Below, piece by piece: positions 537 to 12,255 of a stretch of 24,434 nt of DNA. Every line of letters begins with the position of its first letter. Position 1 is the first letter of the stretch. The stretch is from a virus. The translations under genes and the position numbers were made by a program. Where the stretch lies: positions 1-24,434 of IMG/VR virus record IMGVR_UViG_3300025289_000116; one strand, 5' to 3'. The notes below the pieces were generated by a model. The model saw only the letters and a list, made by a program, of their open reading frames with translations. It made no database searches and was not told the DNA's origin.

Positions 537-2471
537 CTAGGCATACGCCTCCTCACTTTCAGAGTCATCGTCAGCTGGCGAAATAAGTTCATCATTTTCG
601 AACTCTGCCTGCATTTCGGTAGCGGCAGTCTTGTATACAGTCTTACCGAATAACTTCTCCTGACTTCCGTATGTTTTTCCTGCTTTAGCATCCGTAAAGA
701 ACGGAATAGGAAACAGGTCTGGAACTTCCATTATTGCGCCGATTTCTTTACCCGATCGAATTACATCTTCTTCAGGAACTTCTATCATAAGCTCGTCGTG
801 AACAAAGTTTACGATTCTATGTTCACTGCCTTGTTTCTTGCACCATTCGTCAGTACGAATAGCGGCAATTGAAAGTATCTCAGCACAGCCACCCTGGATT
901 TTTGCATTCGCAGCTTTATAGTAATATACGGGATTATCTTCTCGCCAAATTTTACCATCCCAATAGCGAACCATGTTATTCTTGCCGCAGTCAAGAATTA
1001 CTTCGTTCATCCATGGCATAATTCGCGGAAATTCGCGAAGATAATCATTGCGGATTTTCTTAGCCTGAGCCATTGTTTGATTGAGCTTGAATACCAGAGA
1101 ACCAAGAGTCATTCCGTAGATTAATCCGAATCCAATAGTTTTGCTCCATTCTCTGTGCGTTTTATCTACGACTCCCCAGACTTTATTGGAGATCTCACCA
1201 TGAATATCAAGGCCATTGGCAAGAGCTCTCAGCATGAATTCGTCATTCGAAAGAATGCCAAACATGCGCATTTCCATTTGTTTGTAGTCAACGCTTAGGA
1301 GAACTTTACCCGGTCGAGCCATAAAAGCAGTTCTGAGATTATACTCGGCCAAACGTGAGGTGTCTCCAGAATAGACACTTTGAGTAAATCGTCCTCGAAC
1401 TTGACTAGGTACGTTTTGAAGGTTAGGATCAGAGCAGGATAGTCTGTGAGTTCGTGTTCGTGCCTGTTTAAAATTTGCATGGCAGTCGTTGTTTTGATCA
1501 ACCTGCTCTTCGTAACGCTGCAATGTTCGGTACATTCTATATGCTTCTCTGAGGTCTGCAATGACATCGGCAAGGGGATGATGTACCTTTTCTCGAAGTA
1601 GAAATGTGCTGGTGCAGTGGGACTTATAAAGTCCTTTATCGGCAAGTTTAGATCTATCAACTCCATCTGCGTCTGCAAATGGATTCTTAGGTTTCGGTAT
1701 TCCCATTCCTCCATAGATAGCCTCGCTCAATTGCTTAGGTGATCTCCAGTTAAAGTCGCGACCGCATGCATCCCAAAGATCGTTTTCAAAGATTTCTACA
1801 TGCTGTGCCTGTTTAGGAATGGATGAGTTTAGATAGTCTAGATCTAATTGTATACCCAGACGTTCTGCTCTCCATATGGTTTTCAAATACCGCATATCCT
1901 TGAGAAATAATCTCCACAACCCCAGTCCCTCAAGAATTGGCTTTAGAACTTCGAATAGCTGGTAAGTTACGAGAGCATCGTTGTATCCATAATCAGCTCG
2001 CACATCTGGAGGCCACTCCCAGACTTTACTGCGCTTTCCAGGAGCTTCAAACAAATGACGTCTTTTGCTATCTCTCTTCAGGTAAAGACGCTCAGCAAAG
2101 TCCAACGCTCTACGATGTTGCGGTCGACTATCAATATTAGAGAGCATAACCGGAACGTCATATATCTGCCAGCCAAGTTCGTCTGGGTCAGTTCCCAGAA
2201 AGTGTAAGTCGAACTTCGCATTGTGCATGATAACGTGTGTTCCAGGGCCAATCTTCTGCGCCTCTTCGTAAACCCACTGACGACGTCTGTCATCCATGCA
2301 ATGTATAAAGCCATGAATGTCAGCGTCAGGGCATTCAATAGACACCCCTATAACGTGAATACCCGGTCTATACCACAATAAACCAGTTGTTTCAGTATCA
2401 AGTGCAACTAAATGACCGCTTACTTTGGAGAGTATATCTGGATCGTAGATTTTGTACGGCTTATCATCCAT
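537..2471 (-). CDS. polA: Family A DNA polymerase with 3'-5' exonuclease domain
   Basis: A 644-residue replicative polymerase that should copy the phage genome. The N-terminal DnaQ-like proofreading domain is intact: Exo I D25/E27, Exo II N84 and D88, Exo III Y161 and D165. The polymerase domain has motif A at D395-Y396 with E400, motif B as R440, K444, F448 and Y452-G453, and motif C H558-D559-E560. Phenylalanine at 448 is the Klenow-type residue that discriminates against dideoxynucleotides. There is no 5' nuclease domain, as is usual for phage PolA. The last 20 or so residues are acidic and look disordered. A 134-base leader with unusual inverted repeats precedes it, and a primase follows, so the two probably form one replication unit. 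Confidence 0.96.
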   Translation of the reverse strand: MDDKPYKIYDPDILSKVSGHLVALDTETTGLLWYRPGIHVIGVSIECPDADIHGFIHCMDDRRRQWVYEEAQKIGPGTHVIMHNAKFDLHFLGTDPDELGWQIYDVPVMLSNIDSRPQHRRALDFAERLYLKRDSKRRHLFEAPGKRSKVWEWPPDVRADYGYNDALVTYQLFEVLKPILEGLGLWRLFLKDMRYLKTIWRAERLGIQLDLDYLNSSIPKQAQHVEIFENDLWDACGRDFNWRSPKQLSEAIYGGMGIPKPKNPFADADGVDRSKLADKGLYKSHCTSTFLLREKVHHPLADVIADLREAYRMYRTLQRYEEQVDQNNDCHANFKQARTRTHRLSCSDPNLQNVPSQVRGRFTQSVYSGDTSRLAEYNLRTAFMARPGKVLLSVDYKQMEMRMFGILSNDEFMLRALANGLDIHGEISNKVWGVVDKTHREWSKTIGFGLIYGMTLGSLVFKLNQTMAQAKKIRNDYLREFPRIMPWMNEVILDCGKNNMVRYWDGKIWREDNPVYYYKAANAKIQGGCAEILSIAAIRTDEWCKKQGSEHRIVNFVHDELMIEVPEEDVIRSGKEIGAIMEVPDLFPIPFFTDAKAGKTYGSQEKLFGKTVYKTAATEMQAEFENDELISPADDDSESEEAYA

Positions 2472-3296: not shown

Positions 3297-3547
3297 TCAT
3301 CCTCCAAAATAATCCCTTGACTGACCAAAAGTTTTTCCCAACCATGTTCAGTTGCAACGCCCTCAGGTAGAGCTATCCATTGTGTAACGTCAATTAGATG
3401 ACAGACACGACATACTCTCATCTGCGTGAAATTTACGGCTCCACCTGCGAAGGCTTGTGCAAGTCCATTTATCGTAACCACAGGTCTAGGATTAGACCAC
3501 AAAGTCCAATTGTGAATTCTAAATGCGTGAACAAATTTATGAAACAT
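3293..3547 (-). CDS. Small protein with CxxCH motif
   Basis: An 84-residue protein with one CRVCH motif near residue 47 and no partner cysteines, so neither a complete zinc ribbon nor a cytochrome can be claimed: there is no signal peptide, which a c-type heme protein would need. A longer in-frame start at 3667 exists but would overlap thyX by more than 100 bases. The ATG at 3547 is preceded by GGAAGGAG at ideal distance and overlaps the thyX end by 11 bases, so I chose it. Function unknown. It may be a partner of the thymidylate synthase because of translational coupling, which is only a positional argument. Confidence 0.6.
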   Translation of the reverse strand: MFHKFVHAFRIHNWTLWSNPRPVVTINGLAQAFAGGAVNFTQMRVCRVCHLIDVTQWIALPEGVATEHGWEKLLVSQGIILEDE

Positions 3548-4346
3548 TTTTCTCTCCTTCCTGCCAGACGCAGGGACGATCAAATGAGGCTCGATATCCG
3601 CAACTTTCACCACGCTCATAAGGAGCTTGAAGAAGCTGCTCAATTTCAGAACCCATTTTGTAAGCAATTTGACTACGCATTTCTCGAAGAATAGGTTGCC
3701 ATTCTCCTTGCTGAGCCTGGCAGCAGAGGCGCTGCGGAAAGATTCCTTGCAACGTTCTTAGAGAGCAATCAAAGAAAATGCTGGTGAGAATATTAGTCGG
3801 TAAAACTCCCCTTGCATCTTCGCTAGGAACACCACGGTCGAGCAAGGCAACGTAGGAACAAATAGCCTCGACTGCTCCGTTACAGTAGATATCCAAATTG
3901 CTGTCCAGATTAGGGTCGTCAGGGTGATTCTTTTCGCTGGCAGCGTCGTGCGTAATTAAGACTTTGAAAATTTTCTTCATTCCAAGAAAACGCATGCTCT
4001 CTTGTATGAAAGCTGTTCCAACACGGTAGCGAACAAGCTGATGGGTAAATGCTCGGGTTACATCATTCAGCAACCAGAGCATGTGAACCATTTCCAGAGG
4101 CGTTTGAAGTTTGGTCTTCTGGATATCGTCTAATGCCTTTGCAGAATCGTAGTCATCCTTGATTTGAGGAGATGCAGCATATATTCCCTTATATGCTCTT
4201 GTAGCGATGAACATGGTATTTACCGGATACATAGTAAACGATACAAGCTCCACTTTTGCCGCCGCAGGTTTTACGAACCAGATTTCATAGTCGCCAAATG
4301 TTCGCGAACGTTCTACTTGACCGTGAACTACAATTTGGTCTCTCAT
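3537..4346 (-). CDS. thyX: Flavin-dependent thymidylate synthase (ThyX), variant motif
   Basis: 269 residues, somewhat longer than the usual 220-250. ThyX uses FAD, NADPH and methylene-tetrahydrofolate to methylate dUMP to dTMP. The family core is recognisable: FTHQLVRYR at 100-108, QESMRF at 115-120, and the ARGVLPTN...R...F..R...AQ region at 178-212. The classical RHRxxSxNxxSxR signature is altered: histidine is tyrosine, the middle Ser/Asn are not conserved, and one residue is inserted before QESMR. The C-terminus adds three further cysteines-containing segments. It is coupled to the glycosyltransferase upstream through TAATG. It may be an ordinary ThyX variant, or it may act on a different one-carbon transfer such as hydroxymethylation; the sequence cannot decide. 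Confidence 0.85.
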   Translation of the reverse strand: MRDQIVVHGQVERSRTFGDYEIWFVKPAAAKVELVSFTMYPVNTMFIATRAYKGIYAASPQIKDDYDSAKALDDIQKTKLQTPLEMVHMLWLLNDVTRAFTHQLVRYRVGTAFIQESMRFLGMKKIFKVLITHDAASEKNHPDDPNLDSNLDIYCNGAVEAICSYVALLDRGVPSEDARGVLPTNILTSIFFDCSLRTLQGIFPQRLCCQAQQGEWQPILREMRSQIAYKMGSEIEQLLQAPYERGESCGYRASFDRPCVWQEGEKNVS

Positions 4347-5164
4347 TAGAATACTCTACCTTTGCTATCCGAATAGCCCATGTAGCCATGACTATTTATT
4401 GATCGAATAGTCATTTCATTGTAGTTATATCCTATGCGATATTTAAGATTGTCAGGATCTTTGTCATTGACGTTAAGAAATCTAAGTACCTGGTCATGAC
4501 CGCAAAAAGGTTGCATTTCTTCTATGGCCTGTTCCATACTGGCGTTTCTTTCTGAAATGTATTGACCGCCTTGCTCATTCGTCTTGCTCAACCTGGCTAC
4601 AAATGGAGAATGTGTTACACCTTCGCCAAGATGAAGGCGAACAACAGGATGACCAAGATGCCAAAGCTTGACCGAAAATCTAATATCCTCAAGAGCGTCG
4701 ATGTGGAACGGAGGTTCAAGGAATCTATCCATGACATTTGCCAATGCCGGTACTGATACCGCCCACAATTGACTGGCTACACCGGATATACGAAATTCCT
4801 TGTTGGCCTTCAAACTTTCGTTCCAATGAGCTCCAGCCCGGTAATCTGAGCTAATAGCTCCTAATTTTGGAAACTTTGCAAAATTTCGGAGTATCGCTTT
4901 GATGACTTCGTCGCTGAAGTTTACGTCATCATCAATTTGAAGTAGCAGATCGTAGTTACCTTGAATAGCCAGATCTGCAAGAAAGTTTCTGGGAGCGCAT
5001 ATTCCAAGCTCCTGTCGTTCAATAACCTCTCCGTTAGAAGGAATAGAGGTTATTTCTGCTTTTTGAGAAACAATGACAACTTTATCTACAAATGTAGATA
5101 CTTGCATCGCTGCTCTTCCAGCAGTAGATCTCCTTCTGGTAGGAATTCCTGCTAAGACTTTCAT
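4346..5164 (-). CDS. GT-A-fold glycosyltransferase, resembling TET-associated type
   Basis: 272 residues. The N-terminal strand MKVLAGIPTRR, the CAPRNFLADLAI helix and LLLQIDDDVNF with D78-D80 form the nucleotide-sugar and metal-binding half of a GT-A fold. A segment around residues 155-185 (FHIDALEDIRFS, then HLGEGVTH) probably supplies acceptor-side residues and a C-terminal metal-binding histidine. The layout resembles the TET-associated glycosyltransferases of phages that sugar-coat modified bases, as well as general family 2 enzymes. No membrane segment is present, which fits a cytosolic DNA or nucleotide acceptor rather than lipid. Neighbours are thyX and a DUF1599-like gene. GT fold is secure; DNA as acceptor is inference. 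Its ribosome site lies inside a hairpin. Confidence 0.85.
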   Translation of the reverse strand: MKVLAGIPTRRRSTAGRAAMQVSTFVDKVVIVSQKAEITSIPSNGEVIERQELGICAPRNFLADLAIQGNYDLLLQIDDDVNFSDEVIKAILRNFAKFPKLGAISSDYRAGAHWNESLKANKEFRISGVASQLWAVSVPALANVMDRFLEPPFHIDALEDIRFSVKLWHLGHPVVRLHLGEGVTHSPFVARLSKTNEQGGQYISERNASMEQAIEEMQPFCGHDQVLRFLNVNDKDPDNLKYRIGYNYNEMTIRSINSHGYMGYSDSKGRVF

Positions 5165-5169
5165 TTTTA

Positions 5170-5202
5170 CTCTCCGAAGAGAGGGGGGATTACTCCCCCC
5201 TC
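5170..5202 (-). promoter_or_regulatory. Tandem hairpins over stop codon and ribosome site
   Basis: Two hairpins overlap by three bases. The first pairs GAGGGGGG (5202-5195) with CCCCCCTC (5188-5181) around a 6-base loop holding the upstream stop codon. The second is CTCTC-TTCG-GAGAG (5183-5170), a 5-bp stem closed by a C(UUCG)G tetraloop, the exceptionally stable type. Its 3' arm contains the GGAGAG ribosome site of the glycosyltransferase. The two cannot form completely at once. No U-tract follows, so this is not a standard terminator. Confidence 0.6.
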
Positions 5203-5648
5203 CAGTTATTGTCCATCATCATCATGCCAGCGATAGTGGCATAATTATGAAGATCTTTAATCAGATCTTTAAGTTTATCAGCCTGCGATTCGCCAGCATC
5301 GGGTGATCGTAAAACTATTGCCTTAAGTCGCGCATTGATGCCAACGATGGCGACAACTGCACCAAGGACTCCAGTTTCAGCAATAGCATCCGAATAAACG
5401 GCGTTCTTTCTTTCAAAGAGCTCTTTGGCAGAAGCACAAATATCATCAAACTGCTCATTGCGCTTATGAAGTCGAATGTCCATTGTAGATGCCTGCAATG
5501 GTTCCTGCTCAAATCGAGCAGTCGCAGCCTGAATTTTTTCGTGAAGCAGATCAGCCTTTGCCTGTACTTCAGGATCAGTACTGACTCTAACAAATTTTTC
5601 AGACCTGTACGGTCTCTCTACGGTGGGTTCTGAGGGATCGGAACTCAT
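5190..5648 (-). CDS. DUF1599 / Nmad1-like nucleotide-modification-associated protein
   Basis: 152 residues from ATG 5648, chosen because AAGGAG lies ten bases upstream; an in-frame start at 5702 would overlap the previous gene more. The C-terminal two thirds follow the DUF1599 pattern: FDDICASAKELFERKN at 67-82, then VYSDA, a helix with NARLKAIVL, and a final DLIKDLHNYATIAGMMM helix at 128-145. This family is recorded as nucleotide modification associated domain 1 and is common in phages. Its exact reaction is not established as far as I know; an all-helical nucleotide-handling role fits. The first 50 residues are charged and probably disordered. Sits between the MazG-HAD fusion and the glycosyltransferase. 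Confidence 0.65.
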   Translation of the reverse strand: MSSDPSEPTVERPYRSEKFVRVSTDPEVQAKADLLHEKIQAATARFEQEPLQASTMDIRLHKRNEQFDDICASAKELFERKNAVYSDAIAETGVLGAVVAIVGINARLKAIVLRSPDAGESQADKLKDLIKDLHNYATIAGMMMMDNNWRGE

Positions 5649-6567
5649 TTTCAATACTCTCCTTAGCGTCGGAGAAATATCCGACAAAAGTGATTTTATC
5701 ATGATTTACTCCATTATTGTAGAGGTGCTTTCGGGCTATAACCCGAATTCCGCTACATGCTGCTCGTAGCATTAAACCAGGATCATCCTCCAACATTAGA
5801 GCATTTTCGCCTCCTATATTACCTGCTAACAGAATGCGGGAATCAGACCCAATTCGCAATTGATTGATTGCCAATCCATTGGACTTGATCCATTCCCAAG
5901 TATCTCCCCAAATTCTATGATACCGCTGCCACGGTCGAGCCGTATGTGCTATGATGTATGCGTTAAATTCATCGCGTAGCCAGTTAAGAAACTCTACGCT
6001 GTCTGGATAAACCAGAATATATTTATATTGACCACTGCTTTCAAACTCTTCTTTTAGTTTATAATAGTCAGCATACTGCATCGCTAAATCTGAATCTAGC
6101 TGCAAAGACGTCAATCCGTCGTTAACCGGTTCTACGCTATGCGTAGAATATGCCCAATGGATGAATGTTTTTCGCCAATCGCCGAGTGTTCCATCAAGGT
6201 CCGTTATGACGATCAATTTATCCGACGGTATCGGTTCAAATTCCTGGCGATATAATTCGTCTAGGATATCGCTTTTCTGCTTTACAAATTCCAGCATTTC
6301 TTCTGCTGTAAATCCCCACAATTCCCACAAAGACATTACATACTTGGTTATATCAGCAAATTCGTAACCAAGATTAATTACGTCAGGCTTTATGCCCTGT
6401 ATTTTACGATGCCGCTTCCATTGCATGCTATCTAAAATTTCGTTCATTTCGCTGACTAAACCTAAGAGATATGTCTCAGTCCACTCGCCGTTTGACCGTG
6501 GATCCAATAGACGTATTTTTCTATTGTACTGCTTCTGTTGCCAAAAGATATCGTTGAAATCGCTCAT
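5599..6567 (-). CDS. Fusion of MazG/dUTPase-like pyrophosphatase and HAD phosphatase
   Basis: 322 residues with two enzymatic halves. Residues 30-105 carry the all-alpha NTP pyrophosphatase signature, ExxE (E40, E43) followed by ExxD (E69, D72), the magnesium site of dUTPase-2/MazG enzymes that cut dNTP to dNMP and pyrophosphate. Residues 117-310 are HAD-like: ITDLDGTLGD with D123/D125, AHTARP with T209, and LEDDPG at 259-264, close to 5'(3')-deoxyribonucleotidases. Together they could take a dNTP to nucleoside in two steps. The gene is joined by ATGA to the oxidoreductase upstream and overlaps the DUF1599 gene downstream by 50 bases. The substrate base cannot be read from sequence. Confidence 0.85.
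   Translation of the reverse strand: MSDFNDIFWQQKQYNRKIRLLDPRSNGEWTETYLLGLVSEMNEILDSMQWKRHRKIQGIKPDVINLGYEFADITKYVMSLWELWGFTAEEMLEFVKQKSDILDELYRQEFEPIPSDKLIVITDLDGTLGDWRKTFIHWAYSTHSVEPVNDGLTSLQLDSDLAMQYADYYKLKEEFESSGQYKYILVYPDSVEFLNWLRDEFNAYIIAHTARPWQRYHRIWGDTWEWIKSNGLAINQLRIGSDSRILLAGNIGGENALMLEDDPGLMLRAACSGIRVIARKHLYNNGVNHDKITFVGYFSDAKESIENEFRSLRTHRRETVQV
5668..5685 (-). promoter_or_regulatory. Small hairpin before DUF1599-like gene start
   Basis: GTCGGA-TATTTC-TCCGAC is a perfect 6-bp stem with a 6-base loop, ending seven bases before the AAGGAG (5664-5659 region) of the DUF1599-like gene and lying inside the end of the MazG-HAD gene. It could influence coupling between the two genes. It is short enough to be chance, but it repeats the pattern of hairpins just ahead of ribosome sites in this window. 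Confidence 0.3.
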
Positions 6568-7370
6568 ATCAACTTCTCAATAATGCTTTTTGCTTTCTCA
6601 TAAGCATCATGTGAAAGAACTTTTCTATTCCATTCAGCATGACGACCGATAAGATAAACATTTTTCGCAGGTACGTCGGTCGGATCCCATTCCGGAGTAT
6701 CCGGTCGAGTGTCAGGAGCGTAGCACAAGATGCCGTCACCAATAATGTCCTGATTAATAATGTGATCGCTTGGATATTCAGTATGAAATCTTCCAAACAA
6801 ATAAGATATACGTACGAATTTTGACTCCATCGTTCCTACGTATAAACAGAAATTAGTGTCAGGTATGCGCTCGGGTTTGTTTGATTTGCTATATGATAAT
6901 ATAGGAAATTTCACTGCATATTTATTGAGGGCATTTCTGCTCTTTGAAGTTGGAAATGTCACAAAAACAACATCATTATCTTTTGCAATGTCTTTAATGT
7001 CGGCATCAGATATGTCAGAGCACATGAGTACAGAGCTATTTTTCCACATCTCCGTAAGAACTAGGGCGGGTTCATATATGAGCTCTGTTCTTGCCTGCGT
7101 TGGAAATGACGTTAAAACAGTTGATAAATCTATATCTCCCCACTGTTTTCTCAAATAGTTTTCAGAAGTACCATCTGAGTAAATATGCATAGATTGCTTT
7201 GGAATAGGAGCTCCGGTCGGGTTTAATCGCAACCAGAACGGACCTGGAAACATAACCGAAGGAGCACGATTGGTTATGATCTCTGCCTCAATGCCGTAAC
7301 TTCTGCATGCCGCTAGAGCGTATGCCGCTGATGGACCCGCTCCGAGAATTGCTACCGTCAATTTTTCCAT
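6564..7370 (-). CDS. FAD/NAD(P)-binding oxidoreductase
   Basis: 268 residues from ATG 7370; a TTG at 7388 would add six residues but deepen the overlap with the resolvase gene. The N-terminus is a Rossmann dinucleotide site, LTVAILGAGPSAAYAL, with the GxGxxA at residues 10-15, followed by an acidic residue after the second strand (IEAEIIT). The C-terminal VYLIGRHAEWNRKVL resembles the closing FAD-contact segment of UDP-galactopyranose-mutase-like and amine-oxidase-like flavoproteins. The protein is shorter than those enzymes, so the substrate domain is reduced. No membrane segment is present. Adjacent to nucleotide-processing genes, it may provide a redox step in base modification or reduced flavin, but the substrate is unknown. 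Confidence 0.75.
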   Translation of the reverse strand: MEKLTVAILGAGPSAAYALAACRSYGIEAEIITNRAPSVMFPGPFWLRLNPTGAPIPKQSMHIYSDGTSENYLRKQWGDIDLSTVLTSFPTQARTELIYEPALVLTEMWKNSSVLMCSDISDADIKDIAKDNDVVFVTFPTSKSRNALNKYAVKFPILSYSKSNKPERIPDTNFCLYVGTMESKFVRISYLFGRFHTEYPSDHIINQDIIGDGILCYAPDTRPDTPEWDPTDVPAKNVYLIGRHAEWNRKVLSHDAYEKAKSIIEKLI

Positions 7371-7780
7371 TCTATTTCCGATCCCCAATTTGTGAACAAA
7401 TAGAATCTAAGAATGTCAAGAGCATCTTTTTCATGTCGATTGGTAGTCTTTGAGCATTCTAATTTTCTAACCTTCATAATAGGCTTCCATTCACCAGGTG
7501 AAATTAAAATTACTTCCTGATGCAAAGAAAGCGTATTGTAAACTAAATCTACCGAGCTATCTACGCTAGACATATTTGGAAATCTTTCCAAAAGAATAAT
7601 GTCCGGTTTGTAGGCAGACAAAAGAAGAATGACCTGTTCGGGGTTAGTCAAAGATGAACATACTAGACTCCTGAAGCGTAACTCGTACATTGCTACTCCA
7701 GTAGTCTCTCCTAAGTCAATAGAGACAATGCGCAGAGGAAGATAGGGGAGACCGAAGTCTCCCCCCAACGTTTTGATCAT
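7358..7780 (-). CDS. RuvC-like Holliday junction resolvase
   Basis: 140 residues with an RNase H-type core. IVSIDLGETTG gives D22, IILLERFP gives E65, and RHEKDALDIL gives D119 and D122, three residues apart as in E. coli RuvC. These are the four metal-binding acidic residues that cleave branched DNA. The protein is shorter than the roughly 170 residues of cellular RuvC, which is usual in phages. The role is to resolve recombination or replication branches before packaging. The first 17 residues precede the usual start of the fold, and the ATG has no good ribosome site, so the true start is uncertain; a strong hairpin occupies codons 6-12. Neighbours are an SSB-like gene and the oxidoreductase. 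Confidence 0.8.
   Translation of the reverse strand: MIKTLGGDFGLPYLPLRIVSIDLGETTGVAMYELRFRSLVCSSLTNPEQVILLLSAYKPDIILLERFPNMSSVDSSVDLVYNTLSLHQEVILISPGEWKPIMKVRKLECSKTTNRHEKDALDILRFYLFTNWGSEIEWKN
7745..7764 (-). promoter_or_regulatory. UUCG-tetraloop hairpin in resolvase 5' region
   Basis: GGGGAGAC-TTCG-GTCTCCCC is a perfect 8-bp stem closed by C(UUCG)G, in codons 6-12 of the annotated resolvase frame. It carries no downstream U-tract. It is the second cUUCGg hairpin near a gene start in this operon (the other is at 5170-5183). It may limit translation, protect a processed RNA end, or show that the real start lies downstream. Confidence 0.6.
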
Positions 7781-7786
7781 ACTATG

Positions 7787-8263
7787 TTAGAACCGTCGAC
7801 GTCCAGAAGCTTCCTGCGGTTGCTCAGACTCATTTACAACGTCAGACGGTAAGGCTTGATCTGACGGAGCGGCAAGTTCTGAGTCCATAGAAAGTTGTTC
7901 ACCTTCCACCGGAGCTACAAATGCCTCGATAATGGACTTTAGTTTTCCATTGTAAGTATCTTGACCGATGGTGGCTCGAAACTTCTTGCCGATACATTGG
8001 TCAATAGACCACTTACCCCGCTTTGGAGCGCCAATACCGTCTAGAAATTCATCCATTTTCCATCTGGAAGGCTGACCGAGACTTACCGAATGCATCAGCT
8101 CTCTTCCCTGGTTCTCACCTGGACTGATGACTTTACAGATTACTTGCCAATACGGTTCACCTGATGGACCCATTTCTTCCTTAGAACGCTCGGTGATCTG
8201 AAATGTGTGCGTTCCTAAATCGATCAAACCTGAAGTTCTACTCAGATCTACTTGAGTTCCCAT
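7787..8263 (-). CDS. Single-stranded DNA-binding protein-like (phage SSB)
   Basis: 158 residues. The N-terminal 115 residues look like an OB-fold of the phage SSB/DUF669 kind: GTHTFQITERSKEEM, then GEPYWQVICKVISPG, then LDGIGAPKRGKWSID and IGKKFRATIG. The last 40 residues are acidic and Ser/Gln/Pro-rich, as in SSB tails. The final residues are GRRRF rather than the DDIPF-type acidic tip of bacterial SSB. The gene has AAGGAG at ideal spacing and lies directly after the Sak4-like ATPase, the usual partner for strand annealing. It probably coats single strands during replication and recombination. Family identity is likely but not certain because OB-folds diverge strongly. Confidence 0.7.
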   Translation of the reverse strand: MGTQVDLSRTSGLIDLGTHTFQITERSKEEMGPSGEPYWQVICKVISPGENQGRELMHSVSLGQPSRWKMDEFLDGIGAPKRGKWSIDQCIGKKFRATIGQDTYNGKLKSIIEAFVAPVEGEQLSMDSELAAPSDQALPSDVVNESEQPQEASGRRRF

Positions 8264-8277
8264 TTAAATATCTCCTT

Positions 8278-9078
8278 CTATTCTTGTTCGAATTGCTTCT
8301 GCCAGTGAGCATAGAGTTCACCGAAAGTTGGATTTATGATAGTATTCGGGAGTAAATCACTGCGGTCTTTTGTTACATGATTGACCGCATCAAACACCAT
8401 CACACGATTTTTCTTACGATCGCCAGTACCCTCTCCTCCTTCCTGTTTATAGAGATACCCAATGACGTCAACCATTCGGGCAACATTTCTAGAACTATGC
8501 TTACCGACCAGTTGTGGCTGAATGACATCAGTTTCGTATTGCTGTGGAGCAACCTGACAGATGAATACAACATGCATTGGAAGTCCCCGCAGTCTACGAA
8601 CTTCTTTATCGAAATCATCTAACATTTTTCCGTAGTCGGATTGACTGGCAAGATTCTTATACGGTCTACGAACCTCAGGAAATTTCTCGATAACATGATC
8701 CATTGCGATAACTTGCATTTCGTTGAGCGAGTCAACAACTACGGTTTTGAAGTCATGTAGGTCAGTACGCTCTAAATAATTTACTGCACGAACTAAGGAC
8801 TCCCAGGCAGTTTGTTTCATTGCGCTATTGATAGGAATTCTGTTTACCTTTCGAGTAATGGAAGACATGCCTTTATCAATGTCCAGAAACACGGTGTCAG
8901 GCCATGTAGATGCAAACACGGTCTTACCAGACCCGCTTTCGCCATAGACTAAGAATCGTACCTGATCAAGATTAAATAATCCCTCATGCTCTTCAAGCAC
9001 GATTCCGAATTCTTCAGCAATACTTCTATCAGTTACAATGTCCTTCGTAATATTAATATCTTCGACACTGTCAGTCAT
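8278..9078 (-). CDS. Sak4-like RecA-fold ATPase
   Basis: 266 residues. The P-loop is GESGSGKT at 46-53 and Walker B is TVVVDSLNE with D116, inside the compact RecA-like (AAA_24) fold typical of Sak4 phage recombinases. HVVFICQVAPQQ near residue 169 matches the sensor strand. Sak4 proteins promote single-strand annealing or strand exchange, usually with the phage SSB, which is encoded immediately downstream. Its start has AAGGAG directly upstream, overlapping the end of the nuclease gene. With the nuclease, SSB and RuvC-like genes it forms a recombination set. No second helicase domain is present, so a DnaB-like role is unlikely. Confidence 0.85.
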   Translation of the reverse strand: MTDSVEDINITKDIVTDRSIAEEFGIVLEEHEGLFNLDQVRFLVYGESGSGKTVFASTWPDTVFLDIDKGMSSITRKVNRIPINSAMKQTAWESLVRAVNYLERTDLHDFKTVVVDSLNEMQVIAMDHVIEKFPEVRRPYKNLASQSDYGKMLDDFDKEVRRLRGLPMHVVFICQVAPQQYETDVIQPQLVGKHSSRNVARMVDVIGYLYKQEGGEGTGDRKKNRVMVFDAVNHVTKDRSDLLPNTIINPTFGELYAHWQKQFEQE

Positions 9079-9079
9079 T

Positions 9080-9967
9080 TCACTCTCCTTCAGAAGAATC
9101 TGTTTCTGAACTCTTGTGTTCTTTCATAGGAATTAATTGAAGAGCCGGCTCAGGATTTCCATCATCATTAATAGCAAGGCAAGCGCCATAGAAACCACAA
9201 TCCCAACTACAATCTCGAGTAGGAGTTCGATATGCACGAATTCCACCATCTTCATGAAAGGCTTTCATATCTTCCATCTGAACAACCAGTTCTCGAATAA
9301 TCTGTTCAAGTCCTTCGTTGTTTCTGTATACCGGAAGACGAACAACTGGCTCATTTTCAGCTTTTCCTTTGATAGTAGTTCTAACTACATTATATAGAGC
9401 GCCTCTGACATCAAGTCCTAATGCTCTAGCAGCCATCATATAAATGCTAACCTGCGGATCCAGGTCTAAATGACCGGTCTGAACAGTTTTGTTGAATTTA
9501 TGCTCAAGAACCCATAATGTTCCATTATTTCTTTCAACGATGCCGTCAATATAACCTATGAGCGTAAATTCTCCTACTTTTAATTCAAATTCATATTCCA
9601 CCATTGGTACATCGCCAGTATAAGCGAGCTTAAAGTCATCATTCTTGAGTGCCCAATCATAATAACGAAGAAGAACAACAGAAGTATCATCCCAGATATC
9701 AGGCATTTCGTATCCATGCTGTTCTTCATATTCCATCAATTTTTCAGAGGCAGAGTTTATAGATTCAGCTTCTGCATCATTAGGGTCAGCACCGTCAGCA
9801 AGCATCTTATACCACATTCCAAGAGCTGCGTGACCGACACTGCCTACCATTTGACCTCTGGATGGCAAAGGGTCATAATTATTAATGTATGACCATTTAT
9901 ACCGCATTTTGCATCTGCGGAAAGATGCAAGACTTGTGTGTGATAGTTTTCTATCGAACGTTGTCAT
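9080..9967 (-). CDS. Cas4/RecB-family PD-(D/E)XK nuclease with iron-sulfur cluster
   Basis: 295 residues. It starts with the typical LSHTSLASFRRCKMRY, has GSVGHAAL with H46, then GYIDGIVERNNG with D141 and VLEHKF with E155 and K157, and Q172 two turns later: the complete RecB-type nuclease site. Cysteines C19, C253, C257 and C263 have the spacing of the 4Fe-4S cluster of Cas4, AddB and Dna2-like enzymes. It should process DNA ends to single strands for the neighbouring Sak4-like ATPase. There is no CRISPR array or cas1/cas2 in the window, so this is a phage recombination nuclease. The start overlaps the preceding hypothetical gene by 17 bases; the ribosome site is weak. Confidence 0.88.
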   Translation of the reverse strand: MTTFDRKLSHTSLASFRRCKMRYKWSYINNYDPLPSRGQMVGSVGHAALGMWYKMLADGADPNDAEAESINSASEKLMEYEEQHGYEMPDIWDDTSVVLLRYYDWALKNDDFKLAYTGDVPMVEYEFELKVGEFTLIGYIDGIVERNNGTLWVLEHKFNKTVQTGHLDLDPQVSIYMMAARALGLDVRGALYNVVRTTIKGKAENEPVVRLPVYRNNEGLEQIIRELVVQMEDMKAFHEDGGIRAYRTPTRDCSWDCGFYGACLAINDDGNPEPALQLIPMKEHKSSETDSSEGE

Positions 9968-10286
9968 TGATTACTCTGTCTAGTTCCGTGGGATAAACTT
10001 TCAGAAAACTGTACTTCTTGTCGGAATACACTCCGATATAAAAGTCCGAGAGCTCCCGCAGCATATATCCGAGAATAAAAGAGGCAATTACTCTGCCTGT
10101 AGGAATGATAACATCAAGTGACCGGTCAAACCCTGGCATAACCTTGGAAATAGAAATGGCTATTTCTTCATCCCGCTCATCACCCTTGAGAATATACATG
10201 ATATTTTCAGCATGAAATTTCAATGCTGACATATCGTGCAGCTTTCCTTGCTCTATGACAAATGCCGTTCTAAATGTCTTATCCAT
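9951..10286 (-). CDS. Hypothetical protein, 111 residues
   Basis: I do not recognise this protein. It begins with a charged alpha/beta region (FRTAFVIEQGKLHDM), has an acidic helix KGDERDEEIAISISKV near residue 34, a hydrophobic stretch VIASFILGYMLREL at about 66-79, and ends with a basic-acidic tail. The hydrophobic stretch contains an Arg and is too short for a confident membrane helix. It overlaps the helicase end by eight bases and the nuclease start by 17 bases, so it is translated within the recombination operon. It may be an accessory subunit of the helicase or nuclease, which is only a positional guess. Confidence 0.6.
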   Translation of the reverse strand: MDKTFRTAFVIEQGKLHDMSALKFHAENIMYILKGDERDEEIAISISKVMPGFDRSLDVIIPTGRVIASFILGYMLRELSDFYIGVYSDKKYSFLKVYPTELDRVINDNVR

Positions 10287-12255
10287 GAAGCACTTCTCGA
10301 ATCAGGCCCGTAGTTATTTGAACACTATTTTCTCTTTTGAAGCCTAGCACTCTATGAATGACATGATCAATCGTGGGTTTACCTATGAGCTCTCCGTCTA
10401 TATTTTCTGTCAGATTGGACAGAAGGATAATGACATGCGGTGATTGAGTAGTACCTATGCGTCTAACTCTGTGAAGACTTTGATAGTAATCATCGCCATT
10501 ATATGATCGTTCGGCATAGATGGCAGTTCTAGCAGCGGTCAAGGTGAGGCCGAACTTACCGACACCCGGATGAGCAATCATAGCATCTACTTTTCCTTCT
10601 TGGAAATTTCTGACTGCCAGATCTCTATCTACGGTGCTGGTCTCTCCGGTCAGCAATCGAGTCTCTAGTTTTGATTTCTGCAATAGAGCTCTAATTCCCA
10701 CAGCAGTTGGGATGAAATTAGTCCATATAATTGCCGGAAGTTGTTCGAATTCCAAGATATCCACTACAGAGTCCCACTTGGGAGCTTCATGCGGACCACC
10801 CACAAGAGCTGGATTGCTGGCAAGTTGATTGAGTCTTGTAATTTGCGCAAGGATATTTGCAGCAACTAAAACATCTCCCTCAGGTAACAAGGTCATAAAG
10901 TTCTCTTGCATCTCCCTATACATCTTTGACTGTTGACCGCTCATCGGAATTTCCATTACGTCAAATATCCAGTCGGGAAGACTAAGAACTTGATCTTGCG
11001 TTCGGGCAAAATAGATATCCCTAAAGTCTCTCTTTATTCGTTGCGCAGCATCTTGTTGATTGTTTACAATACTAGTTCCCCAGAAATTATCTTCCAGCAT
11101 GCAATAATTTCTGGCAAAATCCCAATAAGAAGGAAATCTGCCATGATCAATTACATGAAATTGATGCCATAAATCATCATAAAATTTAGTAGTAGGACTT
11201 CCGCTAAGAAGAAATACTCGCTTGACTCCTCGCATTTTATTGACAATAGTATCTATTGCTTTAGATCGATTAGCCTTTCTATTTTTGATGAGAACAGACT
11301 CGTCAACGATGATATTATCAAATTGAAATGGTTTAGAAAGTCTCCAGTTTACTCTGGTGTTCACTGTTTTACCGTTCTTGTTCTTTTTCTTCTTTTCGTC
11401 AAAAAGAATCATATAACCGAAGACAGTTTCATAATTTGCAATCACCCAATTTGTATCAACTCTGCCGGCAAAGCCATGCCAAATTCTAGACTCCTCGCCA
11501 ACCCATTTCGTTATCTCATGCTTCCAGTTATACATAAGAGATTTGGGGCAGACTACAAGTGTCCTACCGCCCATTTTCTTGATTGCCATAATAGAAACAC
11601 GGGTTTTCCCTAACCCAGGAGCAAGAGCCAACATTGACTTGTTAGACCTAATGAGAAATCCCTCTGCTTCAGTTTGAAAAGCAAAAGGATCTCCTTCATT
11701 CACGATCGTTGTTGCAGCGAGTAACTCAATCCTGCTTAACCAGCTCTGTACAGATTCGTCTAATTCGTACTTTGGAAACATTTCTCTCAATTGCTCAAAA
11801 CGAGACAGATTCAACTGAGCTCCCCAATGACCGGGTTCATGTCTTCCCCAGGTAAATCCAATACTCTTAATTTGCGTAGTTGGAAAAGTTACCGGCTTGA
11901 AAAGAATTACGTCACCATTAATCTTAATTATACCATCAATATCTTTATTGGCATCTCCATTTTTGCCATAGACTATTGCAGTCGCCGGCAGCGTAATCTT
12001 GTCAATACCAAATGTATTAATCTGCCGCTGATATTTCCTCAGTTTTACTTGGATAAGGTTGAGCTGCTTTTCAGATACACCTTTTCCCCGCACAAGCATC
12101 TGCTCAGCAACAGATGTCAAAAACTCAGCATCAGTTGCGTTAAAACCGACACCGTTATCTTCAACAGTTTGTTGAGATATGCGCTCATCTGAGGTTTGTA
12201 GTGAATAGAGTAGGGCTAAAGCTTTTAGAACGTCTGTTTCATTGTCCCAGTCCAT
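10279..12255 (-). CDS. SNF2-type superfamily 2 helicase/ATPase
   Basis: 658 residues. An N-terminal region of about 190 residues precedes motor lobe 1: ALAPGLGKT (Walker A, 212-218), TLVVCPKSLMYNW (Ia), NIIVDES (motif II, D318-E319), LLSGSPT (III). Lobe 2 has TRLLTGETS, AHPGVGKFGLTL and QSLHRVRRIGTT (motif VI with two arginine fingers). The order and the NW after motif Ia are typical of SNF2 enzymes, which in phages serve as replication or recombination helicases. The N-terminal KSIGFTWGRHEPGHW-like stretch suggests a HARP-like DNA-binding segment seen in SMARCAL1-type fork-remodellers, a tentative point. It is the first gene after the strong leftward promoter, with AGAGG five bases from ATG. 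Confidence 0.9.
   Translation of the reverse strand: MDWDNETDVLKALALLYSLQTSDERISQQTVEDNGVGFNATDAEFLTSVAEQMLVRGKGVSEKQLNLIQVKLRKYQRQINTFGIDKITLPATAIVYGKNGDANKDIDGIIKINGDVILFKPVTFPTTQIKSIGFTWGRHEPGHWGAQLNLSRFEQLREMFPKYELDESVQSWLSRIELLAATTIVNEGDPFAFQTEAEGFLIRSNKSMLALAPGLGKTRVSIMAIKKMGGRTLVVCPKSLMYNWKHEITKWVGEESRIWHGFAGRVDTNWVIANYETVFGYMILFDEKKKKNKNGKTVNTRVNWRLSKPFQFDNIIVDESVLIKNRKANRSKAIDTIVNKMRGVKRVFLLSGSPTTKFYDDLWHQFHVIDHGRFPSYWDFARNYCMLEDNFWGTSIVNNQQDAAQRIKRDFRDIYFARTQDQVLSLPDWIFDVMEIPMSGQQSKMYREMQENFMTLLPEGDVLVAANILAQITRLNQLASNPALVGGPHEAPKWDSVVDILEFEQLPAIIWTNFIPTAVGIRALLQKSKLETRLLTGETSTVDRDLAVRNFQEGKVDAMIAHPGVGKFGLTLTAARTAIYAERSYNGDDYYQSLHRVRRIGTTQSPHVIILLSNLTENIDGELIGKPTIDHVIHRVLGFKRENSVQITTGLIREVLHG

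Follow-up and report, generated by a model that had tools for sequence, protein, structure and literature searches.

Gene content and layout of the cassette

The window analysed here - the whole of a viral record of 24,434 bases (IMGVR_UViG_3300025289_000116) - has every clear gene on the minus strand. Tail genes, a holin, a helicase, a nuclease and AAA genes lead into a cassette (3537-7370, minus strand), which is followed by a family A polymerase and a primase. Five closely packed ORFs of the same orientation make up the cassette; they are given below in reading order, followed by the flanking genes.

6564-7370 (-): FAD/NAD(P)-type oxidoreductase (FOX) of 268 aa in the phrog_8720 superfamily, opens the cassette; by profile, structure model and a 46% identical L002 protein
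5599-6567 (-): MazG-like NTP pyrophosphohydrolase domain (about aa 1-100) and NT5C-like, deoxynucleotidase-like HAD domain (about aa 115-320); by profiles and motifs
5190-5702 (-): DUF1599-like protein (nucleotide modification associated domain 1-like; DUF); by family matches, real start possibly downstream of 5702
4346-5164 (-): soluble GT-A-type glycosyltransferase (GT) with DDD motif, accessory; by phrog_842 match (E 2.6e-4), missing in L002, TAGT-type GT in the same slot of L010
3537-4346 (-): ThyX variant (His53->Leu, His79->Tyr, Y91->Phe) with the conserved arginines present; by Thy1 match and alignment
7358-7780 (-): RuvC-like flanking replication gene
7787-8263 (-): possible SSB, flanking replication gene
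8278-9078 (-): AAA_24 flanking replication gene
9080-9967 (-): Cas4-like PD-(D/E)XK flanking replication gene
10279-12255 (-): SNF2-type helicase, flanking replication gene
537-2471 (-): family A DNA polymerase, downstream of the cassette

A preliminary description of this DNA saw five adjacent, overlapping genes. Their adjacency is borne out by the ORFs, all of which are present, and overlap holds at three of the four junctions: FOX and MazG-HAD share four bases, MazG-HAD and DUF up to 104 bases (the length varies with the DUF start assumed) and GT and ThyX a single base, but DUF and GT are separated by a gap of 25 bases. On actinophage maps, a replication gene set comparable to that at 7358-12255 stands ahead of FOX, and most relatives of the cassette encode DnaE. 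Since the place that DnaE has in other phages with the module is taken by a family A polymerase in the window lineage, the cassette has outlived a swap of the polymerase. Elsewhere in the window, a partial primase (1-519) matches the AEP-TOTE primase domain and a 62-aa zinc-ribbon-like protein is encoded between ThyX and the polymerase (2606-2794).

Conservation of the cassette in other phages

The closest relative is a viral contig (L002) whose ThyX is 68% identical to the window protein and which carries FOX, MazG-HAD, DUF and ThyX in the order of the window (46-68% identity), without a GT between DUF and ThyX. When one actinophage FOX was used as tblastn query, the gene was found in 120 phage records, all of them actinophages, with hosts from six genera (Streptomyces, Gordonia, Mycobacterium (cluster D type), Microbacterium, Arthrobacter and Nocardia), and searches for ThyX gave the same counts as those for FOX in Gordonia (46) and Microbacterium (36). 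In these actinophages FOX adjoins replication genes, HAD mostly comes next and DnaE and ThyX lie downstream. Single-sequence scans of viral contigs with FOX and GT as queries returned no relatives, tblastn of FOX, GT and DUF from the window against annotated phages gave no matches, and the genome contigs searched held no confirmed relatives of FOX or GT.

We also collected 47 distinct viral contigs with FOX relatives from IMG/VR and scanned the neighbouring genes with HMMs, taking contigs with enough flank as denominators; the resulting counts come from phages that are related to one another and are not independent events. On these contigs, a deoxynucleotidase-like HAD follows FOX in 42 of 43, a DUF1599-like gene is present in 33 of 40 and ThyX in 24 of 26, and the remaining two (L055, L016) have ThyX elsewhere, as a search of the whole contig revealed. 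Judged by distance correlation, FOX and HAD form the tightest pair (0.85), ahead of FOX-DnaE (0.77) and FOX-ThyX (0.31). Part of this linkage may reflect inheritance of a replication block, yet conservation of the arrangement in other phages excludes that it arose by chance. The co-occurrence that the preliminary description proposed to look for is found for FOX, HAD, DUF and ThyX, which form a deeply conserved four-gene module; it is not found for the GT, an add-on that is missing from L002 and most other relatives.

MazG-HAD and DUF1599-like proteins

Assignment of the second gene as a MazG-like/HAD fusion is upheld for the HAD half and more tentative for the MazG-like half. The HAD half carries a DLDGT motif (window position 6201) and shows significant homology to actinophage HADs, while the putative MazG-like N-terminus has a weak phrog_173 match (E 0.004) together with an acidic motif (E40xxE43...E69xxD72). 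Against the NT5C family (PF06941) the window HAD scores E 0.06 and its homologue in Mycobacterium phage Gumball 32.1 bits (cut-off 24.8). MazG and HAD are fused in the window and separate genes in actinophages. As for the DUF1599-like protein, the window protein itself does not match DUF1599 (PF07659), but 3 of 31 relatives do (best E 9.7e-6). Streptomyces phage Rooney gp53, which an initial hint had suggested to be a 2OG-halogenase, proved to be DUF1599-like. A kinase that would act on a modified nucleotide was not found, which speaks against the pathway proposed below.

A ThyX clade altered in the folate pocket

That the last gene encodes ThyX or a variant of it is confirmed, and it is the variant that applies. 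The window protein matches Pfam Thy1 (E 6e-23; 82.1 bits, cut-off 24.8) but stays below the cut-off of the NCBIfam thyX equivalog (72.4 vs 87.9 bits) and fails the RHR-x7-S signature, having RYR and one additional residue ahead of the Ser. Using T. maritima ThyX numbering (from a computed alignment), we compared 33 distinct FOX-linked proteins with nine canonical ones (T. maritima, M. tuberculosis and seven phages). All 33 have lost S30 (Tyr/Thr), H53 (Leu/Ile; Leu in the window), H79 within RHR (Gln/Ser/Thr/Tyr/Asn; in the window protein, Tyr107) and Y91 (Phe/Ala/Ser), whereas all nine canonical enzymes have both H53 and H79. In reduced T. maritima ThyX, H53 bonds Y91 and forms a stack with the pterin of folate (PMC11940539). 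Shared with canonical ThyX, by contrast, are the fold family as well as Q75, R78, R80, S88, R90, R147, R165 and R174, which are retained in each of the 33. What sets the FOX-linked members apart is thus the uniform loss of four residues and the company of FOX. In a tree, in which several canonical branches are long, the altered ThyX proteins form a single clade (support 95/88).

FOX and its remote relatives

FOX opens with a Rossmann start at its N-terminus, and an AlphaFold model built from a 36-sequence alignment (pLDDT 88.6) has UDP-galactopyranose mutases as its nearest solved folds, followed by flavin monooxygenases and renalase (Foldseek; about 10-14% identity, TM about 0.55). With the best of the mutases (E 1.6e-9), TM amounts to 0.56 of the query and 0.43 of the target, and the match falls short of a full-length fold with the substrate domain. 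FOX shares with these and related FAD enzymes the fold and a C-terminal GRxxxW-like motif, but it is some 100 residues shorter (268 vs about 370 aa), and where beta-2 ends it lacks the usual acid: 33 of 36 sequences have Ser (Ser/Thr) there, followed by Lys/Arg. Because of this Ser and Lys/Arg, NADP(H) is as possible a cofactor as FAD. The earlier designation as a flavoprotein oxidoreductase stands as regards the Rossmann start and the nearest folds; FOX would be a dinucleotide-binding enzyme, probably of the flavin kind, with FAD as the putative cofactor.

A ThyX of the altered clade without a close FOX occurs in Pbunavirus EPa61, Burkholderia phage WTB and Rhizobium phage TM61, which might have been regarded as FOX-less members. 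However, a Pbunavirus protein came up when viral structures were searched for the fold of the FOX model, and 1-2 kb upstream of ThyX all three phages encode a phrog_4828 protein that has a Rossmann start and, at its C-terminal end, a GRFATW-like motif. Profile-profile comparison (hhalign) matched FOX to phrog_4828 at 96% (E 2.8e-9; E 1e-6 under other settings), while five other profiles, including a Rossmann SDR, gave no match in the same kind of comparison. Since a remote FOX relative precedes their ThyX, the Pbunavirus objection falls and turns into support. In EPa61 and WTB, a phrog_415 HAD, the family of the actinophage HADs, comes just after ThyX. Phages with canonical ThyX gave no FOX match in a profile search, the profile being one that also misses remote FOX. 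Proteins of phrog_4828 listed as 'unknown function' adjoin altered ThyX in Pbunavirus and other phages (L094:18339-19340, L008:8096-9070, L093:3132-4118).

The glycosyltransferase is accessory

The sole PHROG match of the window GT, to phrog_842 (beta-glucosyl-HMC-alpha-glucosyltransferase), spans residues 7-175; against Pfam no family scored above cut-off, TAGT (PF20691) included. An HMM check for a TAGT relationship therefore came out negative on that profile and positive, albeit weakly, for a DNA glucosyltransferase family. Three other FOX-module contigs carry TAGT-like GTs matching phrog_842, two of which pass PF20691 (L010, 28.8; L054, 27.7; cut-off 27.5), and in L010 the TAGT-type GT sits between DnaE and ThyX, directly before ThyX, which is the slot of the window GT. 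When the window GT was compared by profile with the TAGT-like proteins of these three relatives, the result was insignificant (P 0.08), and its structure model was poor and too weak for a fold search. Most FOX phages are without a matching GT, and as L002 has the other four genes and no GT, we consider the gene an accessory of the window lineage. Of the earlier claim for a core gene that decorates the base, the decorating part retains support from the only significant match, a DNA-base glucosyltransferase family, and from the relatives' TAGT-type GTs; its place in the core is lost. A GT between DnaE and ThyX of a Krampusvirus (L066:21236-22312) was rejected as a TAGT, being of general GT2-type with a hydrophobic C-terminal stretch.

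A proposed pathway and its alternatives

From gene content, order and conservation, from loss of the folate-site histidine and its partners, from the retained arginines and from the GT's nearest family we infer both the catalytic steps outlined here and thymine as the base. We lean towards reading the cassette as a nucleotide-level thymine-modification pathway, in which a 5-substituted deoxyuridine replaces thymine and sugar decoration is optional. MazG-like and HAD domains would strip a canonical (deoxy)nucleotide, most likely taking dTTP via dTMP to thymidine, dUTP to dUMP, or both, the ThyX-derived enzyme and FOX would convert dUMP to a 5-substituted deoxyuridylate, the phage polymerase would incorporate the modified triphosphate and, in some phages including the window virus, the GT may put a sugar on the base in DNA. 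The DUF1599-like protein may have a function in this pathway, too. The hypermodified base suggested by the preliminary description is partly supported by gene co-occurrence, the ThyX variant, the GT family and a search for TET and hydroxymethylase enzymes that found none (see below), although not with the GT as a core member. Intermediates of the canonical ThyX reaction can be trapped by acid as hydroxymethyl-dUMP (PMC4913046), which makes it plausible that a ThyX might release or redirect the carbon. More tentatively, and with rather less confidence than in the pathway as such, we suggest that the ThyX clade devoid of a folate pocket, together with its dedicated FOX, may add to dUMP a carbon unit other than the folate-derived methyl.

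An ordinary thymidylate-supply operon, which we consider unlikely but worth taking seriously, would have the variant ThyX still make dTMP, with FOX as electron donor or flavin-handling helper, MazG and HAD cleaning the pool and the GT acting elsewhere. ThyX with MazG is common, as a matter of general knowledge, in phages without known DNA modification. Moreover, all conserved arginines, Q75 and S88 are retained in the variant, and the complete genomes searched have this ThyX alone, without ThyA. Such an operon is hard to square with the uniform loss of S30, H53, H79 and Y91, residues that order folate and flavin in canonical ThyX, or with a dedicated FOX family and a deoxynucleotidase that travel alongside; the lack of FOX in canonical-ThyX phages also speaks against it, albeit by an insensitive profile search. 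Even with dTMP as the product, it would be mechanistically surprising for a ThyX to function without the histidine that stacks on folate.

Two further readings dispense with an unusual base. Were FOX a UDP-galactopyranose-mutase-like enzyme, as its best Foldseek matches and the presence of a GT in the window might be taken to mean, the cassette could provide an unusual sugar nucleotide for the GT and decorate the virion or host surface, with ThyX being incidental. Given the shortness of FOX and its low identity to the mutases, the lack of a matching GT in most FOX phages and the constant association of FOX with a nucleotidase and ThyX, we find this quite improbable. Least probable of all to our minds is salvage or depletion, whereby the cassette reduces a pool of nucleotides that host defence senses; HAD and MazG domains do belong to nucleotide-degrading families, but the variant ThyX, FOX and the TAGT-type GTs of relatives would be left unexplained.

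If the more tentative suggestion of another carbon unit is true, thymine would be replaced in a large set of phages whose enzyme is now annotated as an ordinary thymidylate synthase: besides the 120 records from actinophages, a few hundred of Pbunavirus type and numerous uncultured viruses. If thymine modification by the cassette is right, many cultured phages, mycobacteriophages among them, would have a modified thymine that standard sequencing overlooked, formed by a flavin route without a TET or ThyA-type enzyme, and part of their restriction behaviour could be explained. SP-15-like bases would also gain an origin that can be tested, and base modification a new toolkit. Our literature search found no nucleoside analysis or DNA-base experiment for any phage with the module; SacII cutting of JG024 (Pbunavirus) DNA is uninformative as evidence since the SacII site has no T.

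Relation to known DNA modification systems

SPO1, PhiW-14 and T4 make their hydroxymethyl-pyrimidine with ThyA-fold hydroxymethylases. The proposed pathway would share their logic, i.e. a 5-substituted pyrimidine nucleotide is made, the competing canonical triphosphate is destroyed and DNA is then decorated, but differs in that a model for ThyA-type enzymes had no match in 36 records. Likewise, a TET_JBP model, which gave no signal in any control, found no match in these 36 records, and no C5-cytosine methylase was found in 13 records. Where searched, these results agree with the lack of a known hydroxymethylase noted earlier and, more weakly, with that of a TET/JBP oxygenase. With phages that hypermodify cytosine via TET and TAGT, the module has in common the TAGT-type GT of three contigs; it differs in that TET and C5-cytosine methylase were not found and in that the window GT does not match the TAGT model.

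Modified bases of PhiW-14 and SP-15 are synthesised at the nucleotide level, and PhiW-14 also loses dTTP (PMC5977210). SP-15 DNA contains 5-(4,5-dihydroxypentyl)uracil, for which gp130 was proposed as hmdUMP synthase (PMC5977210). In the SP-15 genome (L079:6026-7911), the SDR gene gp129 overlaps gp130, a very divergent Thy1 protein, and a nucleoside 2-deoxyribosyltransferase gene lies nearby. Among FOX contigs, 12 of 26 have SDR genes, one of which overlaps ThyX (L054). SP-15 thus resembles the module by partial, nucleotide-level replacement of thymine (known from the literature) and by a divergent Thy1 that overlaps an SDR as in L054, yet it has no FOX match, its gp130 is extremely divergent and its sugar genes are separate.

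As a separate observation, Gordonia and cluster D mycobacteriophages have two additional genes within the module, for a methyltransferase (phrog_6636) and for an SDR reductase (L005:8040-9921 and L006:9238-10959).
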